Source: Actinomycetes bacterium (GTDB taxonomy: Bacteria > Actinomycetota > Acidimicrobiia > Acidimicrobiales > Palsa-688). Taken from it: a stretch of 40,209 bases of DNA. Position numbers and translations under genes: made by a program. The DNA is taken from assembly GCA_021838305.1 (NCBI GenBank), contig JAKCEB010000006.1, forward strand, positions 1 to 40,209. Direction: 5' to 3'. Position 1 is the stretch's first letter. Every line of letters starts with the position of its first letter. The notes beneath the pieces were generated by a model. It saw nothing but the letters and a program-made list of their open reading frames with translations. It had not been told where the DNA came from and made no database searches. Positions 26,347-39,847 of this stretch are shown here, piece by piece.

Positions 26347-27432
26347 TCAACGGCTGCGCTCGAAAGAGTGGACCAGGTCGACGATCCTTGCCAGCACATC
26401 GGGATCGGTCTCCGGCATGACGCCGTGACCGAGGTTGAAGATGTGGCCGTCGACGCCCGAGTCTCGCGCCTCGTGAAGTATCCGCAGGGCGGCGGGCGCA
26501 GCAGCTTCCCAGCCCGCAACGCAAAAGGCAGGATCGAGGTTTCCCTGGAGGGCGACGGAGCCGCCGGTGCGCTCACGGGCCACGCCGAGCGGGACTCGCC
26601 AGTCGACCCCGACGACCGTCGCTCCAGCCCCGGGGATCATTCCGATCAGTTCGCCGGTTCCGACACCGAAGTAGATCAACGGGACTCCGCTGGAGGCCAA
26701 GGCTGCCAGGACCTTCGTGGTCGCCGGAAGCACGAAGCGCTCGTAAGTGGCCGGGTCGAGGGCGCCCGCCCAACTGTCGAAGAGCTGCACAGCTTGCGCC
26801 CCGGCGGCTATCTGGGCTTCGGCGCTGGCAATAGCCTGGTCGGCCAGTCGATCGAGGAGAGCCAACCAAAGGGCTGTATCGGCGAGCATCAGGGTCTTCG
26901 TCTGCACATAGTCACGCGAGGGTCGCCCCTCGATCAGATAGCTGGCGACGGTGAAGGGTGCACCCGCGAAACCTATTAGCGGTATCGTCAGCTCCCTCGC
27001 CAGGATCCGGACGGTTTCGATTAGCCACGGAGCATCAGCTTCGACGTCGAAAGGTCGCACGCGCTCGAGGTCGGCGGCTGATCTGAAAGGCTTCTCGACG
27101 ACGGGGCCTACACCGGACTTGATGTCGACGCCGAATCCCGTCGCCGCCGGCGGTACTACGATGTCCGAGAAGACGATGGCGGCGTCAACGCCGTAGCGCC
27201 GCACTGGCTGCAGAGTTACTTCGACTGCGAGGTCTGGGCGCATCAGGGATTCGAGGAGCCCCTCGTCGCCTCGAACCCTGCGGTACTCCGGGAGAGCGCG
27301 TCCGGCTTGGCGCATGAACCATACAGGTGTCGTCGGGACGGGCTCACGGCGGCACGAAGCTAGGAAGAAATGTTCGGGCGGCGCTGTCACGGTAGTGACG
27401 CTACCCGCCTCGGATGGATGCGTGGCTTGCAA
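26347..27432 (-). CDS. hemE: Uroporphyrinogen decarboxylase
   Basis: TPVWFMRQAGRALPEYRRVR, AAIVFSDIVVPPAATGFGVDIKSGVGPVV, IGFAGAPFTVASYLIEG, QLFDSWAGALDP, ILNLGHGV: HemE motifs. Start uncertain; in-frame GTGs lie within the first 20 codons. Confidence 0.96.
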   Translation of the reverse strand: MQATHPSEAGSVTTVTAPPEHFFLASCRREPVPTTPVWFMRQAGRALPEYRRVRGDEGLLESLMRPDLAVEVTLQPVRRYGVDAAIVFSDIVVPPAATGFGVDIKSGVGPVVEKPFRSAADLERVRPFDVEADAPWLIETVRILARELTIPLIGFAGAPFTVASYLIEGRPSRDYVQTKTLMLADTALWLALLDRLADQAIASAEAQIAAGAQAVQLFDSWAGALDPATYERFVLPATTKVLAALASSGVPLIYFGVGTGELIGMIPGAGATVVGVDWRVPLGVARERTGGSVALQGNLDPAFCVAGWEAAAPAALRILHEARDSGVDGHIFNLGHGVMPETDPDVLARIVDLVHSFERSR

Positions 27433-27467
27433 AGGCGGCCGTCACCACGCAAAGTGGTTGTTCCCTT

Positions 27468-29690
27468 ATGGCGCACCCCGACGTCCATTCAGAGCAGGAG
27501 TACGTGGACCTGGCATACGCCAGGCTTTCGGCGATGCGTGATGCGACCCAGTCGATGCTACGCGAAGCCTTCTCGGACAAGAGCAGCGGGTTTCAGGCGG
27601 TAACCGAACGTGATGTCCGGGTTCGAAGCGGACTGAGCCGCTTGGAGCACCTTTTTATCGGGACGGAATCTCTCGTGTTCGGGCGTATCGACAACGCGGG
27701 CAGCGGGCCGAGCTATCACGGTCTCGAGTCGTTCCATATAGGCCGCCTTGGTGTATCGGGCGCCGACCAGGAACCGCTCGTCGTCGACTGGCGCGCCCCT
27801 GTCGCGGAGCCTTTCTACCGGGCTACCGGTGCGCATCCGATGGGCCTGTCGAGGCGTCGCCATCTGCTTTGCAACGGTTCGCGCGTGCTCGACCTCGAAG
27901 ACGAGCTGTTCGACAGCGAAGGCGACGCCGTCGGTCGCTCGTTGGGCCTGGAAGGCCGCCAGGTGCTCTTTGCGAGCCTGGACCGGTCCCGCTCGGGACG
28001 GATGCGTGACATCGTCGCGACGGTCCAAGGCGAGCAGGACGAGATCATCAGGGCGCCGTTGCCGGGTGTGATCGTGGTTCAGGGGGGTCCCGGAACAGGT
28101 AAGACGGCTGTCGCCCTCCACAGGGCCGCATACCTCCTCTACACGCACAGGTTTCCCCTCGAGAAGCAGGGCGTTCTGGTGGTCGGCCCCAACCGGACCT
28201 TTCTCAGGTACATCGAGCACGTACTTCCGTCGCTCGACGAGACAGGCGTCGAGATGTCCACGGTCAACGGTTTGTACCCGTCGACGGCCGTGGCTGCGAC
28301 AGGCGTGAAGGAGAACGTCGTGGTCGCAAAGCTGAAAGGCGACGGCCGAATGGCGAAGGTTCTGGCGCGCGCTGTAGCCGGACGGGAGAGGCCCCTTCGC
28401 CACGACGTCCGCATCCCTTACGGGGGGAGGACGCTCCGCCTAAGCGTGGCCGTCTCGGAGCAGATCGTTGCGGCGGCCAGACGCAGGCCGGGCACCCACA
28501 ACGCCCGTCGACGAATTGTGGAGGCTTACCTGTGGCGCTACCTGGCGACCCAACTCGTCGACGACCGCGATTCCCCAGCCGACTCTCCTACGGTGGATCC
28601 GACAGAGCTCGGACGCGCCCTCAGGCGCATCCCCGAGGTAGCCGAAGCGCTCGAACGGATCTGGCCCCTCCTCAGCCCCGAGCAGTTCCTGCGCGACCTG
28701 TACGGGGCCAAAGCCCTACTGGACCTCGCGGCTGGAAGCATTCTCGGCGAGGATGAAAAGGCGCTGCTTCTGCGAGACCGCGGCGAGTCCCTGGAAGCGG
28801 CTCGTTGGACCGAGTCGGATGTCGCCCTCCTCGACGAAGCGTTGGCCCTCCTCGGTGCACGCCACAAGGGAGCGGCCGACCCGGCAGGATCGCAGCGCTC
28901 CTACGGGCATGTCGTAGTCGACGAAGCGCAGGACCTTTCACCTATGCAGCTTCGGATGATCGCAAGGCGATCTCTGTCCGCATCGATGACGTTGGTCGGC
29001 GATATCGCCCAGGCGACGGGCGCGGTGGTCCCGGCGTCGTGGGGTGAAGTCGTGGCCAATCTCGCGCCGCGCCGGGACTGGAAGCTCCTCGAGCTGTCGG
29101 TCAACTACCGGACGCCGAGCGAAATAATGGACGTCGCCGCCCAGGTTCTCCGGGCGGTCGACCCGTCGATGAGGCCGCCTGAATCGGTCCGCTCGTCGGG
29201 GCGCCCCCCGAGGGTGCTCCGAGCGAACCCCGCAGGCGGGAGCGGGGAGCTTCTCGAACGTTTCGTCGGCGCGCTCGGCGACGAGATCGCCGAGCTCGTG
29301 GCCCGGACGGCGGCAGGCCGAGCGGGTCGCTTACCGGGCGATGCGCCGCCTCTCGGCGGTGGCGTCGTGGCGACCCCGGGGTCGTGGGAGGGGACCCTCG
29401 CAGTGATAACCGCACCCAGCATCATTGCGGCTGTATCCGGCGCAATGAGCGACGCCGGTATCGTTTTCGGCGTGGCGGGCAGAGAGGCGCTCGACCGTTC
29501 GATCACGGTGCTTTCCGTGGATGACGCGAAGGGACTCGAGTTCGATTCGGTCCTAGTCGTCGAACCGGCGAAAGTGGCAGCGGAGAGCCTTCAGGGACTG
29601 CGCGGCCTGTACGTGGCGTTCACTCGGGCGACGCAGAGCCTCGCGGTTGTCTACAGCGACGAGTTGCCGGTACACCTCGACTTTCGTTAG
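27468..29690 (+). CDS. HelD/HelR-like RNA-polymerase-associated SF1 ATPase
   Basis: FHIGRLGVSGADQEPLVVDWRAPVAEPFYRATGAHPMGLSRRRHL..., GVIVVQGGPGTGKTAVALHRAAYLLY (Walker A), GHVVVDEAQDLSPMQLRMIARR (motif II), C-terminal DDAKGLEFDSVLVVEP...GLYVAFTRATQSLAVVY. The WRAPVAxPFY block is typical of HelD. Confidence 0.94.
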   Translation: MAHPDVHSEQEYVDLAYARLSAMRDATQSMLREAFSDKSSGFQAVTERDVRVRSGLSRLEHLFIGTESLVFGRIDNAGSGPSYHGLESFHIGRLGVSGADQEPLVVDWRAPVAEPFYRATGAHPMGLSRRRHLLCNGSRVLDLEDELFDSEGDAVGRSLGLEGRQVLFASLDRSRSGRMRDIVATVQGEQDEIIRAPLPGVIVVQGGPGTGKTAVALHRAAYLLYTHRFPLEKQGVLVVGPNRTFLRYIEHVLPSLDETGVEMSTVNGLYPSTAVAATGVKENVVVAKLKGDGRMAKVLARAVAGRERPLRHDVRIPYGGRTLRLSVAVSEQIVAAARRRPGTHNARRRIVEAYLWRYLATQLVDDRDSPADSPTVDPTELGRALRRIPEVAEALERIWPLLSPEQFLRDLYGAKALLDLAAGSILGEDEKALLLRDRGESLEAARWTESDVALLDEALALLGARHKGAADPAGSQRSYGHVVVDEAQDLSPMQLRMIARRSLSASMTLVGDIAQATGAVVPASWGEVVANLAPRRDWKLLELSVNYRTPSEIMDVAAQVLRAVDPSMRPPESVRSSGRPPRVLRANPAGGSGELLERFVGALGDEIAELVARTAAGRAGRLPGDAPPLGGGVVATPGSWEGTLAVITAPSIIAAVSGAMSDAGIVFGVAGREALDRSITVLSVDDAKGLEFDSVLVVEPAKVAAESLQGLRGLYVAFTRATQSLAVVYSDELPVHLDFR

Positions 29691-29724
29691 GTGTCCGCGT
29701 CACGGGTTGGTAGTGTCGCCGCTC

Positions 29725-30276
29725 ATGGGAATCGGGCCCGACCTGAAAGCTGAACTCGTCAAGCTGGTTCGTGAGCAGGGATTCGAGCGTCGAAGCGAAC
29801 CGTTCCAGCTGACGTCAGGAGGCTGGAGCCACGACTACGTGGACGGGAAATACGCCCTTTCCAGGGGCTCGGCGCTTCGTCGGGCGGCCGAGGGCGTTTG
29901 CGACGCGGTTGGGGGTGGGTTCACCGCCGTCGGAGGCCCGACGATGGGCGCTGACGCTCTTGCCCACGCCGTGTGCCTCATCTCGGGCTGCTCGTGGTTC
30001 TCGGTGCGCAAGGAGGCCAAAGGTCACGGCCGCCGGTCCTGGGTCGAAGGTGCGCGCCTGGACGACTCCGCGTCGGTCCTGATGGTAGAGGACGTGGTCT
30101 CGACCGGCGCATCGCTTCTTCGTGCGGCGGATCACGTACGCGACCTCGGCGCGATGATCGTCGCTGCGACTGCGCTGGTCGATCGCAGCCCGAGAGTCGC
30201 GGAGACTTTCCGAGAGGCCGGTATACGCTGGGAGCCCCTGCTCACCTGGAAGGATCTACAGATCGATCCGCTCTGA
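29725..30276 (+). CDS. pyrE: Orotate phosphoribosyltransferase
   Basis: FQLTSGGWSHDYVDGKYALSRG, GPTMGADALAHAV, SVRKEAKGHG, MVEDVVSTGASLL (PRPP-binding motif). Confidence 0.93.
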   Translation: MGIGPDLKAELVKLVREQGFERRSEPFQLTSGGWSHDYVDGKYALSRGSALRRAAEGVCDAVGGGFTAVGGPTMGADALAHAVCLISGCSWFSVRKEAKGHGRRSWVEGARLDDSASVLMVEDVVSTGASLLRAADHVRDLGAMIVAATALVDRSPRVAETFREAGIRWEPLLTWKDLQIDPL

Positions 30277-30840
30277 GCCGTAGCGGAGGGCAGACTCCAC
30301 CCGGCTCAACCCGTCGTCGAGGAGGTTCAGGTCGCCGAGAGGGTCTATCAGGTAGTGGCGGACACCTTCCACGTGGGTGGGAGCGGCCTCGGTCAGCAAG
30401 GCCCTCCCAGATGGCGTGAGCGATGCGAACGTCCCGCGCCGGTCGACCGGGCACGACCGTCTTGCGACCAGTCCGCTCCTTACGAGCGCGGTCACGCGCC
30501 TGGTCAGACCGCTCCGGGAAAGCCGGAGAAGGTCGGCAAGGTCAGACATGCGCAATCCGTCGGGGCCGGCATCTCCGAGGTGCACAAGCACGGCGTACCC
30601 GCCGAGAGTGAGCTGGTGGGATTCCCTCAAATCTCGATCGAGAAGGTAGTGGATCTCCGATTCCGCGCGGAGGAGCCGCCTCCATATGACTTGCTCCTCG
30701 TCGGAGAGCCAGCGGGTCCCGAGCGCAGCTTGACCGGTCGCTGCTCCGGCAGTCAGGTAGGGTGCTGTCAGCTCTGACGAATTGTCGTCGGTCGGGGCGC
30801 GGCTGACGCAACTAGAAGAGACCACTTCACTTGGAGACAT
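30256..30840 (-). CDS. MarR family transcriptional regulator
   Basis: LTLGGYAVLVHLGDAGPDGLRMSDLADLLRLSRSGLTRRVTALVRSGLVARRSCPVDRRGTFASLTPSGRALL: MarR winged helix. Confidence 0.94.
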   Translation of the reverse strand: MSPSEVVSSSCVSRAPTDDNSSELTAPYLTAGAATGQAALGTRWLSDEEQVIWRRLLRAESEIHYLLDRDLRESHQLTLGGYAVLVHLGDAGPDGLRMSDLADLLRLSRSGLTRRVTALVRSGLVARRSCPVDRRGTFASLTPSGRALLTEAAPTHVEGVRHYLIDPLGDLNLLDDGLSRVESALRYGSERIDL

Positions 30841-30854
30841 CTGTCAGGTAGAAT
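30826..30854 (+). promoter_or_regulatory. Candidate promoter for the sigma-factor gene (TTCACT-N17-TAGAAT)
   Basis: -35 TTCACT 30826-30831 (4/6), 17-nt spacer, -10 TAGAAT 30849-30854 (5/6), 69 nt upstream of the TTG start at 30924. Confidence 0.45.
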
Positions 30855-30868
30855 TCATTCCCTGGCAG
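30841..30868. repeat. Imperfect inverted repeat CTGTCAGG-N12-CCTGGCAG, candidate MarR operator
   Basis: Arms match at 7 of 8 positions. Directly abuts the marR start codon (CAT at 30838-30840) and contains the candidate -10 of the divergent sigma gene. Confidence 0.5.
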
Positions 30869-30923
30869 GCTTAGAAGCTGGCCTTGTGCACCCGCCCAGG
30901 GTACTCGGGAAAGACGAGGACGA

Positions 30924-31859
<936 letters not shown>

Positions 31860-31885
31860 CGGCCCTTCGAGTCCTTTCACTCCAG

Positions 31886-32326
31886 TCAGAGTCCCCGGCC
31901 GCCAAAGCCTCTCGGGATGTGCGAAAGAACGACCGACGCGACTACGTGGAGGCTCTTTGCTGAGACCAGGACGACGGCGAACCTTCCTGCCTGCGTCTGC
32001 GGTGCAAGCTCGACTTGGCCGGCCTTGAAGTCCCCCTGGAACGCCATGGCGCAGATCTCGGTGTCCTTCTCAGCGGTGAGGGCACCCTTTTCCGTCGACG
32101 ACAGTGGCAGCCGGACCGAACCGAGAGGAAGCTCGTGCACCCCGACGAGCCTGACGTCGTTACTGTGGAGGGAGGAGCGACCGACCGGTATCGCCCGGAA
32201 GCAGACCGACACCGAGGCATTCGACAGTTTCGGGGTCGAGGAACATCCAGCGAGACCCATGACCATTAGGACGAGCACCGCCGCTAAAGCGACGCGAGGC
32301 TTGACGAAGGCGAAGACGACTTTCAT
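31886..32326 (-). CDS. Putative lipoprotein, function unknown
   Basis: MKVVFAFVKPRVALAAVLVLMVMGLAGC|SS lipobox. ATGA-type 4-nt overlap with the upstream flippase-like gene on the same strand. Confidence 0.75.
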   Translation of the reverse strand: MKVVFAFVKPRVALAAVLVLMVMGLAGCSSTPKLSNASVSVCFRAIPVGRSSLHSNDVRLVGVHELPLGSVRLPLSSTEKGALTAEKDTEICAMAFQGDFKAGQVELAPQTQAGRFAVVLVSAKSLHVVASVVLSHIPRGFGGRGL

Positions 32327-33429
32327 GGCGACGACTCAAGTTCGTCCAATGCCAGGCCTCCCGCCTCGGATCCGCCCGGGGGGTTCGGGCCGGGGGCGCC
32401 CGGGCGGTCCTGCAACTCTGAAGGCGCTCTCCTCGAAGCGACCGCCAAAGTGGCCCAGGCGACCCAACCCACGGCGAGCATGAGCCAATAAGAAACGAGC
32501 CTGTAAAGCAGGACGGCAGCGACGGTGGATACCTCAGCTCCCCCGAAAGTGACCAGGGCCACGGTAAGGCTTCCCTCGACGGCACCGAGGCCGCCGGGGG
32601 TTACCGGCAAGTTGGATGCGAGCTGGCCGGCCGCATAGGCGAGGAGGAGCCCTCTCCACGGGACACCAACTCCGACAGCGTAGAACGACAGCACGAGACA
32701 TGACAGGTCGGCCAGCCAATTGCACGCGGCCATGACCGCCGCGCGGATCCATTGCTTGCGCGAGGGGTTGACTGCGGAAAGCTCCGCGATCCACCCGTTC
32801 ACGACATCGTCGGGGGACTTGGCGGATCGGCGCCGGCGGAGAGCTCTCTGCGAGAGCGCGACGAGGCTCACAAGATGGCGCAGCAACCTGCGTCGCTCGA
32901 CGAAAGCCACGACCAGGACTATGGCGACGACGATGATCCCGAGGATCGCCTCGACGAGGTCGTAAGAGCTCCCGCTCGAAGCAGCGACGGCCAGCCCTAC
33001 GAGCGACAACGTGGTCAACGCGAGAAACGTGAGCATGTTGAATGCGACGAGGACCCAGCCTGACAGGACGTCGGTTGCGCCATGCCTGCGAAACTGGCGG
33101 AACAGGTAGGCCAGGTAGATGACGGTGCCCCCGGGGAACGACGATTGGATCGATGAGCCGGCGAGGGTAATTCCCATCATCGTGCCTGCCCCGATCTCAA
33201 TCTTTCCGGCCCGAAGCAGGCGGCGTTGCAGGGAGGAGAGGGCGGCGAAGGATCCGATCTCTCCCGCCACCGCAAGAAGCATCCACCACCACCTGAAGTG
33301 ACTCAGATAGCCGGAAATGCCGGCGAGCTCACCCGTCTTGCCCGATATCGCCCACGCTCCGACACCCAGTGCGACGAGTCCGATGGCCGCACGAAGAGCG
33401 GGCCACGCCCATCGCGGTCGCCTGCCCAC
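32323..33429 (-). CDS. Lysylphosphatidylglycerol synthase TM region/YbhN-like (UPF0104) membrane protein
   Basis: Polytopic: LSHFRWWWMLLAVAGEIGSFAALSSLQRRLLRAG...AGSSIQSSFPGGTVIYLAYLFRQFRRHG...AYAAGQLASNLPVTPGGLGAVEGSLTVALVTFG: LPG_synthase_TM signature. Confidence 0.9.
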   Translation of the reverse strand: MGRRPRWAWPALRAAIGLVALGVGAWAISGKTGELAGISGYLSHFRWWWMLLAVAGEIGSFAALSSLQRRLLRAGKIEIGAGTMMGITLAGSSIQSSFPGGTVIYLAYLFRQFRRHGATDVLSGWVLVAFNMLTFLALTTLSLVGLAVAASSGSSYDLVEAILGIIVVAIVLVVAFVERRRLLRHLVSLVALSQRALRRRRSAKSPDDVVNGWIAELSAVNPSRKQWIRAAVMAACNWLADLSCLVLSFYAVGVGVPWRGLLLAYAAGQLASNLPVTPGGLGAVEGSLTVALVTFGGAEVSTVAAVLLYRLVSYWLMLAVGWVAWATLAVASRRAPSELQDRPGAPGPNPPGGSEAGGLALDELESSP

Positions 33430-33440
33430 CGATCTACCCG

Positions 33441-35633
33441 TCAGCGTCCGAGTGCACGGGCATCCTGATCGAAACCGATCCCACCCCTCGCTTCATGGAT
33501 CATGCCTCGATTGATCTCATGGCCCAACGCTATATCGCCTCGGGGCCTCACCCATTCTAGAACCCGATCTCTGAGACCGGGCACTGCGTCACGGGGTCCG
33601 AGCATCACCAGCGTCCCGGTCGTTCGTGAGGCGACACCGGGCGTGACTGCGTAACCGCAGCCGAGGCGGGACCGGTCGGCTGTGTCTAGCTGCAGTGCAG
33701 TGTTGAAGCCGTCCCAGAGAACCCATGTCCGTTCGTCGCCGCCAGGGCCCGACACGACCGTGCCTCGGGTGCCGTAGGGAACTTCACGTAACCGGCTGGA
33801 AAGCATCACGACTCGAAGATCCTCGGGGAACTGGAACGTCGGAGCGCTGCGACTCCCACCGGGTGGCTCCGCTTCCCGGCCAGACGCATACGACAAGAGG
33901 TTCCGGGCAGCCCGGTTCAGGGCCTCGGTTTCTTCTAAGCCGAGCCCGACCATGAGCGGGTTTACTCCTAGGTCCGACAGTCGCTTCCAGTGGTCGAGGA
34001 TTTCCTCAGCGCAGTCTCGTCCGGTTCGCGCGCCGTTTCGTGGCGAAGCGCAAGCAAGGTCCGTCTTGTCGAAAGCGGCGCTGCCCCACGGCGCTCCTCG
34101 GGGGACGTCGAGGCGCAGGGCTGCGGACTCGTCGAGGCCGCGCGACGCGGGACTGCTCAACCTCGGAAGCGTACCTCCCTCGACGAGAATCAGCTGAGCC
34201 CGACGACTGCGAGCCTCCCCGGCGAGGACGAGAAGTTCGGCTGTACTACGCCGATCGGCCTGGTCGACGACCAGAACATCGAAGTGGGTTCCCGGCTTCG
34301 TCGGCGCCACCGATGTCAGAACCTCCCAGCGTTGTGCCGCCAAAGAAGAGGTCGTTCTGACAACGAGTCGCCGACCGTCGGCCTCGACTCTCTCGCGGCA
34401 CCCGTCGATCAGATCGGCATGGTCGATGAGGCGACTTTGACCTGGAGGGCAGACTAGTCGGACGACGGGGTCGCCAATGCCGGTTTGGGAGTAGATGTCC
34501 CAGCCCGCATCGATCGCGTGTACGAGCCGCTTGTCGGCGGCGACTGACAGCGAAGTCGACCATCGCGGTCGCGACGTCGGGGACCGCACCTTATGGCTGG
34601 CGTCGCAGAACCGCTCAGTCCAAGCGAGGGCTTCCTCGACGCTCGCCCCTCCCGGATGGCACTCCGCTAGGCACACGACCACATCGCTGCGACGGAAGTC
34701 GGATCGTTTGGTGGCGAGCCTGGTTTCGACCGCCTTGACCAGGCGGTCGCTGTCGAGGTTGCCGACTGCGTTGGTGCCCCCAGGTCGACCGCGGCCGTCG
34801 GTAGCGGCGAAATCCCCCGCGCGTGGGATCGCCGCCCCTGACAGCGACGCCGCTTTCGTGACGGCTGCGGCTTGTGCGCGCCCGGGCGTGTTTCCTGCGG
34901 TCCATCCGCTCGCGACCGCCTGCCTCCTCGCTTCGTAGGGGCCTAGCGCGGCGACCGCCCTGCTCTGCGTGCTTGCGTTTCGAACTGCCTCACGGGGAAT
35001 GTCGGCGAGGTCGGCCAGACCATCGGCGCGCAGACGCCACGCGACATTCCAGCCGCGGTCTGCCGTTTGGTGGCGAAGTTCAAGGTGGTACAGCGCCGAA
35101 AGCGATCGTCGGTCGATGAACCAGCTGTCAGGGCGGACAGCCGACCAACGACCGTCGGACATCGACAGGTTGGCGACAAGAAGGTGGGTGTGGAGATGGG
35201 GCTCGCCTGCCGCATTGAAACGGTGCGTGAAGGCGGCGCTGATCAGCCCGTCGCAGTACGATTGTCCGCCGGATACGTTGCTACGCCAGGTCGTGAGCTC
35301 CTGCTCGATGTGGTGGCATACCGACTTCACGGCGCTGTCGTGAGCGGCGAGAGCGACGTTTCCCTCAGCGGGTCCGGCAGCGGCGAGCAGGGAGAACGAT
35401 TTCGGCGCGCTCCAGATCAGGTCCCACCCGTCGCGCCGACGGACGGTGGTTCGGTGCGGCAAGAACTGCGACGTGCGGGGATCCCGGCCGCCTAGGACCA
35501 TGCGCAGATCGCCTGGATCGACAGGCCCTCGAAGCCCGAGCAATTCACCGGCTCCGTGGCTCCAGCGTCCCGGATCTCGACCGTCGAAGAAGTACTGGAC
35601 GGACCGAGAACTGGCTGATCGCACTACGAGCAC
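33441..35633 (-). CDS. MobF/TrwC-type conjugative relaxase with degenerate C-terminal helicase-like region
   Basis: VLVVRSASSRSVQYFFDGRDPGRW..., GWDLIWSAPKSFSLLAA, AAFTHRFNAAGEPHLHTHLLVANL (H-x-H-x-H), then LVVDQADRRSTAELL...LILVEGG and LGCGYAVTPGVASRTTGTLVMLGP aligning to TrwC/RecD-like helicase blocks. GTG 35633 chosen; the ORF track extends to GTG 35705. Confidence 0.9.
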   Translation of the reverse strand: MLVVRSASSRSVQYFFDGRDPGRWSHGAGELLGLRGPVDPGDLRMVLGGRDPRTSQFLPHRTTVRRRDGWDLIWSAPKSFSLLAAAGPAEGNVALAAHDSAVKSVCHHIEQELTTWRSNVSGGQSYCDGLISAAFTHRFNAAGEPHLHTHLLVANLSMSDGRWSAVRPDSWFIDRRSLSALYHLELRHQTADRGWNVAWRLRADGLADLADIPREAVRNASTQSRAVAALGPYEARRQAVASGWTAGNTPGRAQAAAVTKAASLSGAAIPRAGDFAATDGRGRPGGTNAVGNLDSDRLVKAVETRLATKRSDFRRSDVVVCLAECHPGGASVEEALAWTERFCDASHKVRSPTSRPRWSTSLSVAADKRLVHAIDAGWDIYSQTGIGDPVVRLVCPPGQSRLIDHADLIDGCRERVEADGRRLVVRTTSSLAAQRWEVLTSVAPTKPGTHFDVLVVDQADRRSTAELLVLAGEARSRRAQLILVEGGTLPRLSSPASRGLDESAALRLDVPRGAPWGSAAFDKTDLACASPRNGARTGRDCAEEILDHWKRLSDLGVNPLMVGLGLEETEALNRAARNLLSYASGREAEPPGGSRSAPTFQFPEDLRVVMLSSRLREVPYGTRGTVVSGPGGDERTWVLWDGFNTALQLDTADRSRLGCGYAVTPGVASRTTGTLVMLGPRDAVPGLRDRVLEWVRPRGDIALGHEINRGMIHEARGGIGFDQDARALGR

Positions 35634-35791
35634 TTTTACAGTGTTCAGTATTTTCCATGATAATTCAAGAGACTTGCTGAAAACCTTTGACTCAGCAAGT
35701 AACACTAAAACGACTCAAAAAATAGCTTGAAAATCGTAAAAGACTCTGAAATAGTCTATGACGTCAGGCTAACGACGGTTGGAGGTCAATA
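35634..35791. promoter_or_regulatory. AT-rich divergent intergenic region between relaxase and T4SS operon: candidate oriT/regulatory region
   Basis: Conspicuously AT-rich compared with the flanking genes. Contains a perfect 9-bp inverted repeat (35672-35700), a smaller repeat AGACT-N7-AGTCT (35741-35757), and an SD-like GGAGG before ATG 35792. Confidence 0.55.
35672..35700. repeat. Perfect 9-bp inverted repeat ACTTGCTGA-N11-TCAGCAAGT
   Basis: Read directly from sequence; arms 35672-35680 and 35692-35700. Confidence 0.92.
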
Positions 35792-36106
35792 ATGTTCCTA
35801 GCTTCATCGCTCTCAATGGCGGCTTCGGGCACACCCGGCTTGACGCTCGCCCCCAACATCTCGGACCTTCCAGGTGCGACGGTTTTGCAGAACTTGACCA
35901 ACGGCCTCGGAGGTTGGGCGCTGATGGCGGCGATGGCAGGTGTCCTTATAGGGGCCGTTATGTGGGCTTTCGGGCACTTCTCCCAGAACTACCAGCAGGC
36001 CTACAACGGGCGCAAAGGTGTGCTCGTCTCCGGTTTGGCGGCGATACTCATTAGCGGCGCCCCTCGGATCGTCGACTTTCTGGTCGGCCAGGGAGCCAAG
36101 ATATGA
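35792..36106 (+). CDS. Small two-TM membrane protein, T4SS pilin-like (VirB2/TrbC-like; resembles actinobacterial DUF6112)
   Basis: LPGATVLQNLTNGLGGWALMAAMAGVLIGAVMWAFGHFSQNYQQAYNGRKGVLVSGLAAILISGAPRIVDFLVGQG: two hydrophobic segments, first gene of a coupled T4SS run. Confidence 0.75.
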   Translation: MFLASSLSMAASGTPGLTLAPNISDLPGATVLQNLTNGLGGWALMAAMAGVLIGAVMWAFGHFSQNYQQAYNGRKGVLVSGLAAILISGAPRIVDFLVGQGAKI

Positions 36107-37173
36107 GCTCAGTCGTCGGGACCCTCGCGTGCGCCTTCCCGCTGGCATGTGAAGCGAGCAACGCCGGAGGAGCTATCGCGGACGTCGCGGCGCACTCACT
36201 GCTGGCGGCCGTCTCGACGTCGCTCGGTCACGCCTCCGGCTGGCTCGTATCACAGGTGTGGAACCGGATCGATATCACGACCACACCCACCCTCGGAAAG
36301 GCATGGTTCCGAAAGGAACTGGCTGTAATGGAGCAGGTATCGCTAGTCGTGGTTCTGCCCATTCTGCTTGCCGCTAGCATTGGACCGGTCCTTCGACAGG
36401 ACGCACGTCGCCTCACCCGCGTGTGGTTCGTCGGCCTCCCTGTCGCCGTGCTCGCCGGTTTCGCAGCGTCACAAGTCGTCGACCTTGGCATTCAAGTGGT
36501 AGACGAACTCTGCCGCGTATTTCTCGACGCCGGAGCGAACGAGCGGGCGAAGCGCTTCATCGCCGCGATAGCGCAAGGCGAGCTCGGCGGGATCCCGCTG
36601 TTCGCCCAAGGCCTGTTTTCTCTATTGACGATCATCGGGACAGTACTGGTTTGGTTGGAACTCGTCGTGCGCTCCGCAGCAGTCTACGTAGCGACGATCT
36701 TCACACCGTTGGCGCTCACCGGTTTCATATGGCCGGCGACGCTCAGCGTTGCCAGGAGAATGGTAGAGATTCTTGTGGCATTGGTCATGTCAAAGTTCGT
36801 GATCGTGGTGTCGGTGGTGCTTGGTATGGAGGCCTTTGTCCAGTCGACTACAGACGCCCAGCTGTCGGGGGCTGCAATACTGCTGCTCGCCGGATTCGCT
36901 CCTTTCGCCTTGCACCGTCTTGCGCCCGTCGTGGAGGCATCTGCGATCTCGCATTTGGAGGGCATGTCCCACCGGCCTTTCCGGGCTGCTGCAAGGGCGA
37001 CGACTTCCATCGCCGGTGCGCCGTTTCACCCCGTGACACAGCTGATCATGGCGGCCCGCAACTCGTCCGCCTCGACGCCCGCGGTAGTCGCCAAGCCGGT
37101 CACCGCTCAACCTATTGCCGAGCATCCGGCCGACTTCCCTAACACCCCGCCGACACGAGGCACCTCGCGTTGA
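36103..37173 (+). CDS. Conjugal transfer membrane protein, TrbL/VirB6-like
   Basis: Multi-TM: EQVSLVVVLPILLAASIGPVLRQDARRLTRVWFVGLPVAVLAGFAASQVVDLGI...TIIGTVLVWLELVVRSAAVYVATIFTPLALTGFIWPATLSVARRMVEILVALVMSKFVIVVSVVLG. ATGA overlap with the previous gene. Confidence 0.82.
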   Translation: MSSVVGTLACAFPLACEASNAGGAIADVAAHSLLAAVSTSLGHASGWLVSQVWNRIDITTTPTLGKAWFRKELAVMEQVSLVVVLPILLAASIGPVLRQDARRLTRVWFVGLPVAVLAGFAASQVVDLGIQVVDELCRVFLDAGANERAKRFIAAIAQGELGGIPLFAQGLFSLLTIIGTVLVWLELVVRSAAVYVATIFTPLALTGFIWPATLSVARRMVEILVALVMSKFVIVVSVVLGMEAFVQSTTDAQLSGAAILLLAGFAPFALHRLAPVVEASAISHLEGMSHRPFRAAARATTSIAGAPFHPVTQLIMAARNSSASTPAVVAKPVTAQPIAEHPADFPNTPPTRGTSR

Positions 37174-38585
37174 GCGTTCCAGATTCGCGCTACCACTTCA
37201 ATCCGCTCGAACGCCGAGGGATCTTTCTCGGCATCACTCCCGGGCAGCTGGCTTCGGGGTGCGCGACGGGCGTAGTGGCACTGTTTGTCAGGGCCGCGCT
37301 CGGTGCTCGTGTCGGGACGCCGGCAGGCGCTGCAATCGTCTTGGTTGGATTGGCACTGTCGCTGATACCGATTGGCGAAGCCACCGCAATTGAGCGAGCA
37401 CAAGTTGGGTGCGCCTGGCTTCTGCGTAAAGCGAGCCGTACGAAGTTGAGCGACGTTCCTACCAAAGGCCGGAATCTCCACCCCGACGAACCGGACCGAT
37501 CCTCGACGTCCTCCAGATCGAAGACCAGCCGAACCGCTCCCGCAGGCATATCACTCATCGAGCGACCGGTAAGTTCGGGAGGGCCGCCAGTCGGGGTCGT
37601 GCGAGATCAAAGAAGCGGCACCTTGACTGCTGTATTAGCGGTTCAGGGACCACCTTTTTCCCTATTGGACCCCGAGGATCAGTCGAGCTGCCTCGAAGGA
37701 TGGCGCAGCGTGCTTGCGGCGCTCGGACGCGCAGGTAGCCCCGTCGCCCGGATCCAATGGCTGCAGCGCAGCACGCCGGAATCTCCATCGACACAGGTCG
37801 GGGTGCCATCGCCGGTCGGTACCGTCAGCCAGGACGCCTACCGCAACTTCGTCGCGGAGGCCACGCCGCTCATCGAACGCCACGACGCCTGGATCGCGCT
37901 TTCCGTAGGATCCGCACGCTCACCCCGACGACGACTTGCATTAGGGCAACGCTCCGTGGACGTCCTCGGCCGCGAGCTACGTTTCGTGGACGGCCAACTG
38001 CGGTCGGTTGACCTTCGACCGACAGGACCGCTCGAACTGACCGCGCTGGCCGACTTGCTGGCCGGCAAGCCCGGACAACCTTGGCCGCTTGCGCTTCGCG
38101 AAGGCTGGTCGGAGATCCAAGCCGACGATTCGTGGCATCGGACCTACTGGGTGAGCGACTGGCCCCGATTGGATGTCGGGCCCAACTTCCTGGCTCCGCT
38201 GCTCGTGGCGAAGGCGAACCGCCGAGTGTCTGTCGTCATGGCAGCAGTCCCGCCCCGGAGTGCTGTCCGCCAGGCCCGATCGGCGCGCACGGCCGATGTG
38301 GCAGACAGCCAGCTCCGGATGAAAGCGGGGTTTCTGCCGAATGCGCGCCGGGAGAAAGAAGCGGAAGGAGCGTTGCGTCGCGAGCTCGAACTCGCCGACG
38401 GTCACTGCGATTACCGTTTCAGCGGTTATGTCACAGAAAGCGCAGAGTCCCTCGAGGCGCTCGAAGCGGCATGCGCAGCCCTTGAGCAAGCCGCTCAGGC
38501 CGCCAGGGTGGAATTGCGCTGCCTTTACGGTCGCCAGGCGGAGGCGTACTCGTGGACGATGCCCCTGTGCCGGGGTTTGCGGTAG
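37170..38585 (+). CDS. SCO6880-like protein (PrgI-like N-terminus; VirB4-associated T4SS component)
   Basis: YHFNPLERRGIFLGITPGQLASGCATGVVALFVRAAL...LSLIPIGEATAIERAQVGCAWLLRKASR (PrgI/SCO6880 N-terminus). Located between TrbL-like and VirB4-like genes with 4-nt overlap upstream. Confidence 0.85.
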   Translation: MSVPDSRYHFNPLERRGIFLGITPGQLASGCATGVVALFVRAALGARVGTPAGAAIVLVGLALSLIPIGEATAIERAQVGCAWLLRKASRTKLSDVPTKGRNLHPDEPDRSSTSSRSKTSRTAPAGISLIERPVSSGGPPVGVVRDQRSGTLTAVLAVQGPPFSLLDPEDQSSCLEGWRSVLAALGRAGSPVARIQWLQRSTPESPSTQVGVPSPVGTVSQDAYRNFVAEATPLIERHDAWIALSVGSARSPRRRLALGQRSVDVLGRELRFVDGQLRSVDLRPTGPLELTALADLLAGKPGQPWPLALREGWSEIQADDSWHRTYWVSDWPRLDVGPNFLAPLLVAKANRRVSVVMAAVPPRSAVRQARSARTADVADSQLRMKAGFLPNARREKEAEGALRRELELADGHCDYRFSGYVTESAESLEALEAACAALEQAAQAARVELRCLYGRQAEAYSWTMPLCRGLR

Positions 38586-39847
38586 GCGACGAGATGAAGC
38601 CACCGCCGGCGCACCGTTCGACTACTGCCCATCTCCAGTCTGTCTACCCGTTCGTCTCAAGCGGCGGACTTGACGTAGGCGGCCCTTTGCTCGGACGGGA
38701 TCTGCTTGGGGGACCGTTCCGGTTCGATCCGTGGGAGCTTTACCGCCAAGGGGTGATCACCAACCCGAACATCGTGGTCATGGGACAGATCGGCAGGGGT
38801 AAGTCGACGTTTGTGAAGACATTCGTCTCGCGTCAGCTGGCGTTCGGTCGCCAGGCGTGGATCGTGGACCCGAAAGGGGAGTACGGACCGCTGGCAGAAG
38901 CGTTCGGGTGCCGGCCGGTAGCGCTCGTTCCGGGTGGCGCGACCCGGCTCAACCCGCTCGACGTCCCAGCGAAAAGTTTCGACTTTGACGGGCGCAATTC
39001 CACGTGCGAGGCGAGCGTCCGGCCCAGGCTCGAGCTCGCTGCGAGCCTGCTCGCATCTTCGCTCGCTAGACCCGTCAGCCCGGAGGAACGCGCTGCGCTT
39101 GAAGTCGCCGTTCGCCAGGTATCGAAGGATTTCCTTCGACCGACGCTCCCGCAACTGGTGGAGGCGATGATGGCGCCTGATCCTGCAGCGGCAGGCACGA
39201 TCGGATTCGAAGCCAGGGCGTTGGCTGCGAACTCGATGACAGTCGCGGCTGAGATGCGGCGAATGGTCCGTGGCGACCTTGCGGGAATGTTCGACGGGCC
39301 GACAACCGAGGGTATCGGCATGGACGGGCAGCTGGTAGTCATCGACCTTTCGGCCACGTTCGCATCGGCTGCGCTGCCTTTGATCATGGCGTGCGCGACA
39401 GCCTGGCTGCAGGCATCGCTGTCAGTAGAGCGGCCGGAGAAGCGGCTTGTGGTTCTCGATGAGGCGTGGGCGATACTCTCCGACTTCGAGACGGCCCGGT
39501 GGACCCAGGCGACATTCAAACTGTCGCGAGCGCTCGGAGTCTCAAATCTCGTCGTCGTGCACCGTCTCTCCGACCTTCGAGCCCTTGGCGATGACGGATC
39601 CAAGCAGCGCAAGATAGCGGACGGTCTTCTGGCCGATTCGGAGACGAGAGTGTGTTTCGCTCAATCGGCGTCGGAGGTGACGGCGACGGCTTCGCTCGTG
39701 GGCCTCAACTCAACTGAATCCGAGGCCTTGGCACATCTGCCGAGGGGGGTCGCTTTGTGGAAGGTCGGAGATCGATCTTTCCTTGTGGAACACCTCGTGT
39801 CCTCCTCGGAGCGGGCGATGGTAGATACGGACGCAGCGCTCAGATGA
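38552..39847 (+). CDS. VirB4/TraC-like conjugative ATPase
   Basis: VVMGQIGRGKSTFVKTFVSRQLAFGRQAWIVDPKGEYGPLAEAFG (Walker A), RLVVLDEAWAILSDFETARWTQATFKLSRALGVSNLVVVHRLSDL (Walker B). GTG 38552 overlaps the previous gene by 34 nt; ATG 38594 is an alternative start. Confidence 0.92.
   Translation: MDDAPVPGFAVGDEMKPPPAHRSTTAHLQSVYPFVSSGGLDVGGPLLGRDLLGGPFRFDPWELYRQGVITNPNIVVMGQIGRGKSTFVKTFVSRQLAFGRQAWIVDPKGEYGPLAEAFGCRPVALVPGGATRLNPLDVPAKSFDFDGRNSTCEASVRPRLELAASLLASSLARPVSPEERAALEVAVRQVSKDFLRPTLPQLVEAMMAPDPAAAGTIGFEARALAANSMTVAAEMRRMVRGDLAGMFDGPTTEGIGMDGQLVVIDLSATFASAALPLIMACATAWLQASLSVERPEKRLVVLDEAWAILSDFETARWTQATFKLSRALGVSNLVVVHRLSDLRALGDDGSKQRKIADGLLADSETRVCFAQSASEVTATASLVGLNSTESEALAHLPRGVALWKVGDRSFLVEHLVSSSERAMVDTDAALR

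Follow-up and report, generated by a model that had tools for sequence, protein, structure and literature searches.

MobF relaxases have been described as bifunctional enzymes in which nicking and unwinding of DNA are carried out by one polypeptide chain. Here, we describe a MobF relaxase gene on a 40,209-nucleotide stretch of DNA (the window, meaning the whole stretch analysed; Actinomycetes bacterium, Acidimicrobiales, Palsa-688, GenBank assembly GCA_021838305.1, contig JAKCEB010000006.1). In the family to which the window belongs, this relaxase has near-certainly lost its helicase motor throughout the clade, as judged from alignments. An earlier note, made from the letters of this DNA, had proposed such a loss for the window protein. 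Three points go beyond that note: the gene sits at a fixed chromosomal locus, motor-less MobFs track one type of type IV secretion system (T4SS) across the order, and motif I has lost its second tyrosine pair.

Four described systems resemble the window relaxase in part. TrwC of R388, also a MobF, shares the HUH relaxase fold, the three histidines, the catalytic tyrosine and a C-terminal half derived from a superfamily 1B (SF1B) helicase, but the window relaxase has lost the motor and the second tyrosine pair. The second position in TrwC, Tyr26, has been implicated in the cleavage step that makes recircularisation possible (PMC6362355). TraI of F/R1 contains a vestigial SF1B helicase domain that keeps its fold without Walker A and B, binds single-stranded DNA (ssDNA) and carries the translocation signal TSA (PMC3912908, PMC5422253). 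However, the TraI chain also contains an active helicase, whereas the dead domain of the window relaxase is its only one. In ICEBs1, an integrative and conjugative element (ICE), DNA is nicked by NicK and then unwound by the host SF1 helicase PcrA (PMC3542172); a similar division of labor may apply to the window relaxase, although NicK belongs to another relaxase family and to a mobile element. Finally, the gonococcal genetic island combines a relaxase with a T4SS and exports chromosomal ssDNA (PMC12857230), which may also occur here. That system is a genetic island with an F-like machine in a Gram-negative host, in contrast to the minimal actinobacterial T4SS and family-wide chromosomal gene found here. 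Each part thus has a separate precedent, while the combination, apparently fixed on chromosomes across a taxon, was not found described. No paper on motor-less MobF clades was found in literature that left most subscription journals outside its coverage.

An intact nuclease domain joined to a motor-dead helicase half

The gene boundaries and the length of about 730 residues given in the earlier note held up when the open reading frame (ORF) was compared with its relatives, as the GTG start at 35633 is the homologues' start position and yields a 730-residue product. The relaxase domain was also rightly called intact. PF08751 (TrwC) covers residues 13-257 (E 8.6e-41; 140.8 bits against a curated cut-off of 25), the MobF profile NF041492 scores 141.3 bits against a cut-off of 100, and the nearest solved structures by sequence in the PDB are the relaxase domains of TrwC and TraI. 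The catalytic Tyr, the conserved Asp and the three His of the metal site are all present in the window relaxase, invariant in 22/22 family sequences and kept in 37-39 of the 39 other motor-less sequences. By sequence, the window protein is a MobF relaxase with an intact nuclease site.

A domain scan gave no Pfam helicase match for the window protein beyond the relaxase domain. AAA_30 was matched in 6/11 relatives, and some relatives matched TraI/RecD-type SH3 and helicase-associated domains, mostly weakly. When a C-terminal profile of 13 relatives was compared by hhalign with seven intact MobF helicases of the same order, the match spanned 263 columns with a probability of 99.9 and an E-value of 4.8e-31, and chance resemblance to a helicase is excluded because of this profile-profile match. 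AlphaFold2 (AF2) models reached a mean predicted local distance difference test score (pLDDT) of 82.8 for the full protein and 86.6 for the C-terminal part alone, the latter run on an alignment without any intact helicase. These models matched RecD2, TraI, RecD and Pif1, the best being the C-terminal model to RecD2 (E 6.5e-17). Template modelling scores to SF1B structures were low (about 0.3-0.4) with large root-mean-square deviations, so the fold assignment draws on local similarity and sequence profiles instead of a close global superposition. Together, profiles and models indicate that the C-terminal half genuinely descends from an SF1B helicase of the RecD2/TraI type, as the earlier note had suspected by eye.

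The motifs quoted in that note sit at the corresponding positions of intact MobFs. At the P-loop position the window relaxase reads VCPPGQSRLIDHA, motif II DEAG has become DQAD, and the HKAQG position of motif VI reads PGVAS. Its call on motif III was half right: the motif is lost, but the reported replacement EGGTLPRL is a misreading, since about ten residues (GDPRQLPEID) are missing and the counterpart of EGG is the AGG after motif III. This deletion, which leaves GG, is common to all 22 family sequences. The family uniformly lacks GxGKT in motif I, the Walker B Glu in motif II, and motifs IV and VI (22/22), whereas 21/21 comparison MobFs keep the P-loop and Walker B Glu and nearly all keep the remaining motifs. 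Neither a substitute P-loop nor a substitute Walker B was visible in the aligned helicase region, and the window relaxase does not carry the motif I-VI set of an active SF1 helicase. In a relaxase-domain tree, the 22 sequences form one clade (support 100/99). A helicase scaffold has therefore been kept while its motor was lost, and the C-terminal half is expected to have no ATPase activity.

One possible explanation for such a domain is that it is dead weight heading for loss in a decaying remnant. Stepwise decay is indeed seen in other families, down to proteins of 383-453 residues without the domain. Within the window's family, however, the ORFs are open, and the ratio of nonsynonymous to synonymous substitution rates (dN/dS) over the dead domain was 0.25-0.37 in all nine pairs, compared to 0.08-0.31 over the relaxase domain (eight pairs where estimable) and 0.20-0.60 over the linker (nine pairs). 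In several pairs, the value for the dead domain was near that of the relaxase domain. Synonymous divergence (dS) was near saturation in the wider pairs; pairs with lower dS, for example G189-G406 and G307-G400, gave 0.35 and 0.25. Clade-specific features, among them GG(T) and RW..L, are also conserved. A pseudogene is ruled out by these ratios, a decaying remnant is very improbable, and the sequence comparisons place the dead domain under purifying selection.

The second tyrosine pair and the motor-less MobFs of the order

In 38/39 motor-bearing MobFs, the YY of motif I is followed about a dozen residues on by a second tyrosine pair or at least one Tyr. The second pair is absent in 22/22 family members. 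The window relaxase reads YFFDGRDPGRW, compared to, for example, YYLDTVAKGAEEYYTGAKEAPGEW in motor-bearing MobFs, and thus retains only the first of the two catalytic tyrosine positions of a MobF. Among other motor-less sequences, YY was found nearby only in G147 and G116, and a stray Tyr in G081, G073 and G129. Loss of the second pair is consistent with a substrate that does not undergo recircularisation.

A C-terminal profile search had suggested that motor-less MobFs were confined to one family. This reading was dropped when relaxase-domain searches turned up, in other families, motor-less MobFs with a more strongly decayed C-terminal half. There are several grades of decay: in G028 the fold persists, with GASWAGST, HDAG and GELRQL; G047 (family f47) retains GDPAQI, while the window's family lost motif III; and others end soon after the relaxase domain. 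The motor-less sequences occupy one side of a branch (Shimodaira-Hasegawa-like approximate likelihood ratio test 96), except f47, and a constraint joining all 60 into one clade was not rejected (approximately unbiased test, p 0.73). One apparent exception, G029b, proved to be motor-bearing on closer alignment (APAGHGKT and DEVS). A class-wide search with a motor-less relaxase of another family found mainly motor-bearing MobFs outside the order, in a classification that was not exhaustive.

A T4SS with the same gene order was found in many families of the order; outside the window's family, a histidine kinase (of PAS type in the single example scanned) usually stands divergent to it in the relaxase's place (L167-L186). 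Of the non-family genomes positive for this T4SS (SCO6880 match, E up to about 1e-38), 30/36 had a motor-less MobF, two had no MobF at the cut-off and four were unresolved. Among 30 T4SS-negative genomes, a few of which are presumed members of the searched sample, G032 was the one clear carrier of a motor-less MobF, with no more than one other. The association is strong (Fisher p about 1e-11, uncorrected for relatedness), and relaxase distances correlate with those of VirB4 both in the window's family (r 0.87, n 11) and in these other families (r 0.66), whose relaxase and VirB4 genes are separated. The G032 protein (L265), a 684-residue motor-less MobF on a long branch, is an unexplained exception.

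A fixed chromosomal locus beside a minimal T4SS

The features of the window are collected in Table 1. Where neighbors were assembled, the family order was amine-oxidase-like, HelD-like, phosphoribosyltransferase, sigma factor, short ORF, LPG-synthase-like and relaxase genes, with pilin, VirB6, SCO6880, VirB4 and usually a coupling protein gene running divergently. The pilin-like gene adjoins the relaxase in most loci. The genes scanned around the locus were of housekeeping types. Walker motifs of VirB4 and the coupling protein are intact, except for the G049 coupling protein, which fails the Walker A pattern; the full-length homologue of the truncated window coupling protein matches PF02534 (E 3.2e-43). 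The locus thus holds both ATPases of a conjugative T4SS, with the coupling protein non-adjacent in some members.

Table 1. Coordinates of the relaxase gene, its motifs and the surrounding genes in the window
Feature	Position	Strand	Basis
MobF relaxase with motor-dead SF1B helicase half, GTG start	33441..35633	-	730 residues; homologue starts; PF08751
HUH relaxase domain, residues 1-240	34914..35633	-	residue conservation; PDB matches TrwC/TraI
Catalytic Tyr14 codon	35594-35592	-	
Asp71 codon	35423-35421	-	
His146/148/150 codons	35198-35184	-	
N-terminal helical part of helicase-like region, residues 296-380	34494..34748	-	AF2, pLDDT mostly about 90
Degenerate motif I region VRLVCPPGQSRLIDHADL, no P-loop	34410..34463	-	aligned to GxAGxGKT of intact MobFs
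Degenerate motif II VLVVDQAD, Walker B Glu lost	34254..34277	-	alignment to intact MobFs
LILVEGG, scar of about 10-residue deletion removing motif III GDxxQL	34173..34193	-	alignment; 22/22 members
Degenerate motif V/VI region CGYAVTPGVASRTTG	33615..33659	-	alignment to intact MobFs
Pilin-like gene (DUF6112/TrbC-VirB2), divergent from relaxase	35792..36106	+	PF19607 E 1.6e-7, PF04956 E 5e-6
VirB6/TrbL-like membrane protein, SCO6881-related	36103..37173	+	NF047967 E 1.9e-15, under curated cut-off
SCO6880-family T4SS protein	37170..38585	+	NF042935 E 2.5e-58
VirB4 ATPase, intact Walker A GQIGRGKS and Walker B LVVLDEA	38552..39847	+	PF12846 E 2.9e-9
T4SS coupling protein (VirD4/TraG type), N-terminal part, cut by contig end	39825..40208	+	phmmer to G189 coupling protein E 4e-18
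Conserved flank: HelD-like gene, phosphoribosyltransferase, sigma-70 factor, short ORF, LPG-synthase-like membrane protein	27414..33429		same order in other genera

Relaxase, pilin, VirB4 and coupling protein make up a complete-looking minimal conjugation module, and the locus could be a live, self-mobilising and undomesticated ICE with a relaxase that happens to rely on a helicase of the host. Such an element would show a variable position and patchy distribution. Instead, the relaxase is single-copy in 29/32 genomes of the family (27 strong matches plus G339 and G401, with copies cut at contig ends) and has equal flanking genes across genera. It is missing from G323, G137 and G399; the G137 gap is probably due to assembly, as the orthologous coupling gene, with one in-frame stop, sits at a contig end. 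Relaxase distances follow those of the neighboring sigma factor (r 0.68, n 17), motif I lacks the tyrosine pair linked to recircularisation, and no plasmid match covering 80% of the protein was among the matches listed. A live mobile element was rejected on synteny and census, and we consider it quite unlikely.

Several further observations were made at the locus. The HelD/HelR-like gene (27414-29690), conserved near the locus in the family, has an intact P-loop. It was ruled out as the missing motor, as it resembles HelD, an RNA-polymerase-recycling motor. Between relaxase and pilin (35672-35700) lies a 9-bp perfect inverted repeat, ACTTGCTGA/TCAGCAAGT, with an 11-nt loop, which is not conserved in relatives. 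The window protein gave no match when searched against GTDB contigs; eight named loci were obtained from an alignment of four relatives. Locus L105 (JAGWSF010000005.1), filed as Acidobacteriota, contains the actinobacterial locus described here, and the filing is probably wrong.

A possible role in chromosomal DNA transfer

We favor, with moderate confidence, a vertically inherited chromosomal apparatus for DNA transfer or release, in which the relaxase nicks and pilots DNA and a host helicase unwinds it. A conjugative MobF relaxase would have been captured on the chromosome in an ancestor within the order and would work with the minimal T4SS of pilin, VirB6, SCO6880, VirB4 and usually a VirD4-type coupling protein. 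It would nick through its single remaining catalytic Tyr position and stay attached to the 5' end. Unwinding would fall to a host helicase, as the relaxase has no motor. In the window's family, the helicase-shaped domain may have been retained without catalytic function, its most likely tasks being to bind ssDNA and to be recognised by the T4SS, by analogy with the vestigial domain of TraI. The substrate would be a strand of chromosomal DNA, moved to a neighbor or released without recircularisation. Intact nuclease residues and T4SS ATPases, combined with a dead motor and one Tyr position, suggest an enzyme that nicks and pilots but neither unwinds nor closes DNA.

Another possibility is a protein-exporting T4SS, with the relaxase-like protein now serving as a DNA-binding regulator or secreted substrate and having no nicking role. 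The missing motor, the likeness of the dead domain to the fold that holds TraI's translocation signal, and the histidine kinase beside the T4SS in other families would all suit this. A purely structural role, however, would not need the Tyr, Asp and three His that are conserved in this family and the others, and we regard protein export as unlikely.

Some results weigh against chromosomal DNA transfer. Transfer itself is not demonstrated by these data, no partner helicase was identified, and no origin of transfer was found in the window, only the non-conserved 9-bp repeat. A sub-clade of four genomes (G015, G105, G290 and G355; loci L040, L042, L043 and L037) has no orthologous coupling protein beside VirB4, and their best genome matches are only 32-36% identical. 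The VirB4-sigma factor distance correlation in the family is weak (r 0.20, n 12), a point that disfavors simple common descent of the block as a whole. The relaxase gene of other families is not adjacent to the T4SS, so the partnership of the two there rests on co-occurrence and correlated distances. A wider form of the proposal is put forward tentatively, at somewhat below an even chance: an order-wide, vertically inherited, chromosome-encoded DNA export or mating apparatus, in which a MobF was converted once into a motor-less, single-Tyr pilot of linear chromosomal DNA and its helicase half, while discarded by some families, was reused by others as a non-catalytic domain for loading and docking.

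Across dozens of genomes, these relaxases offer a natural series: the motor is lost along with the second tyrosine pair, yet the nuclease site and VirB4 remain intact, as does the coupling protein in most cases. With such a series, one can study which functions a relaxase requires for cargo other than a plasmid. The hosts are soil and mine-water actinobacteria, and the apparatus may represent a native route of gene exchange in these little-cultivated bacteria.
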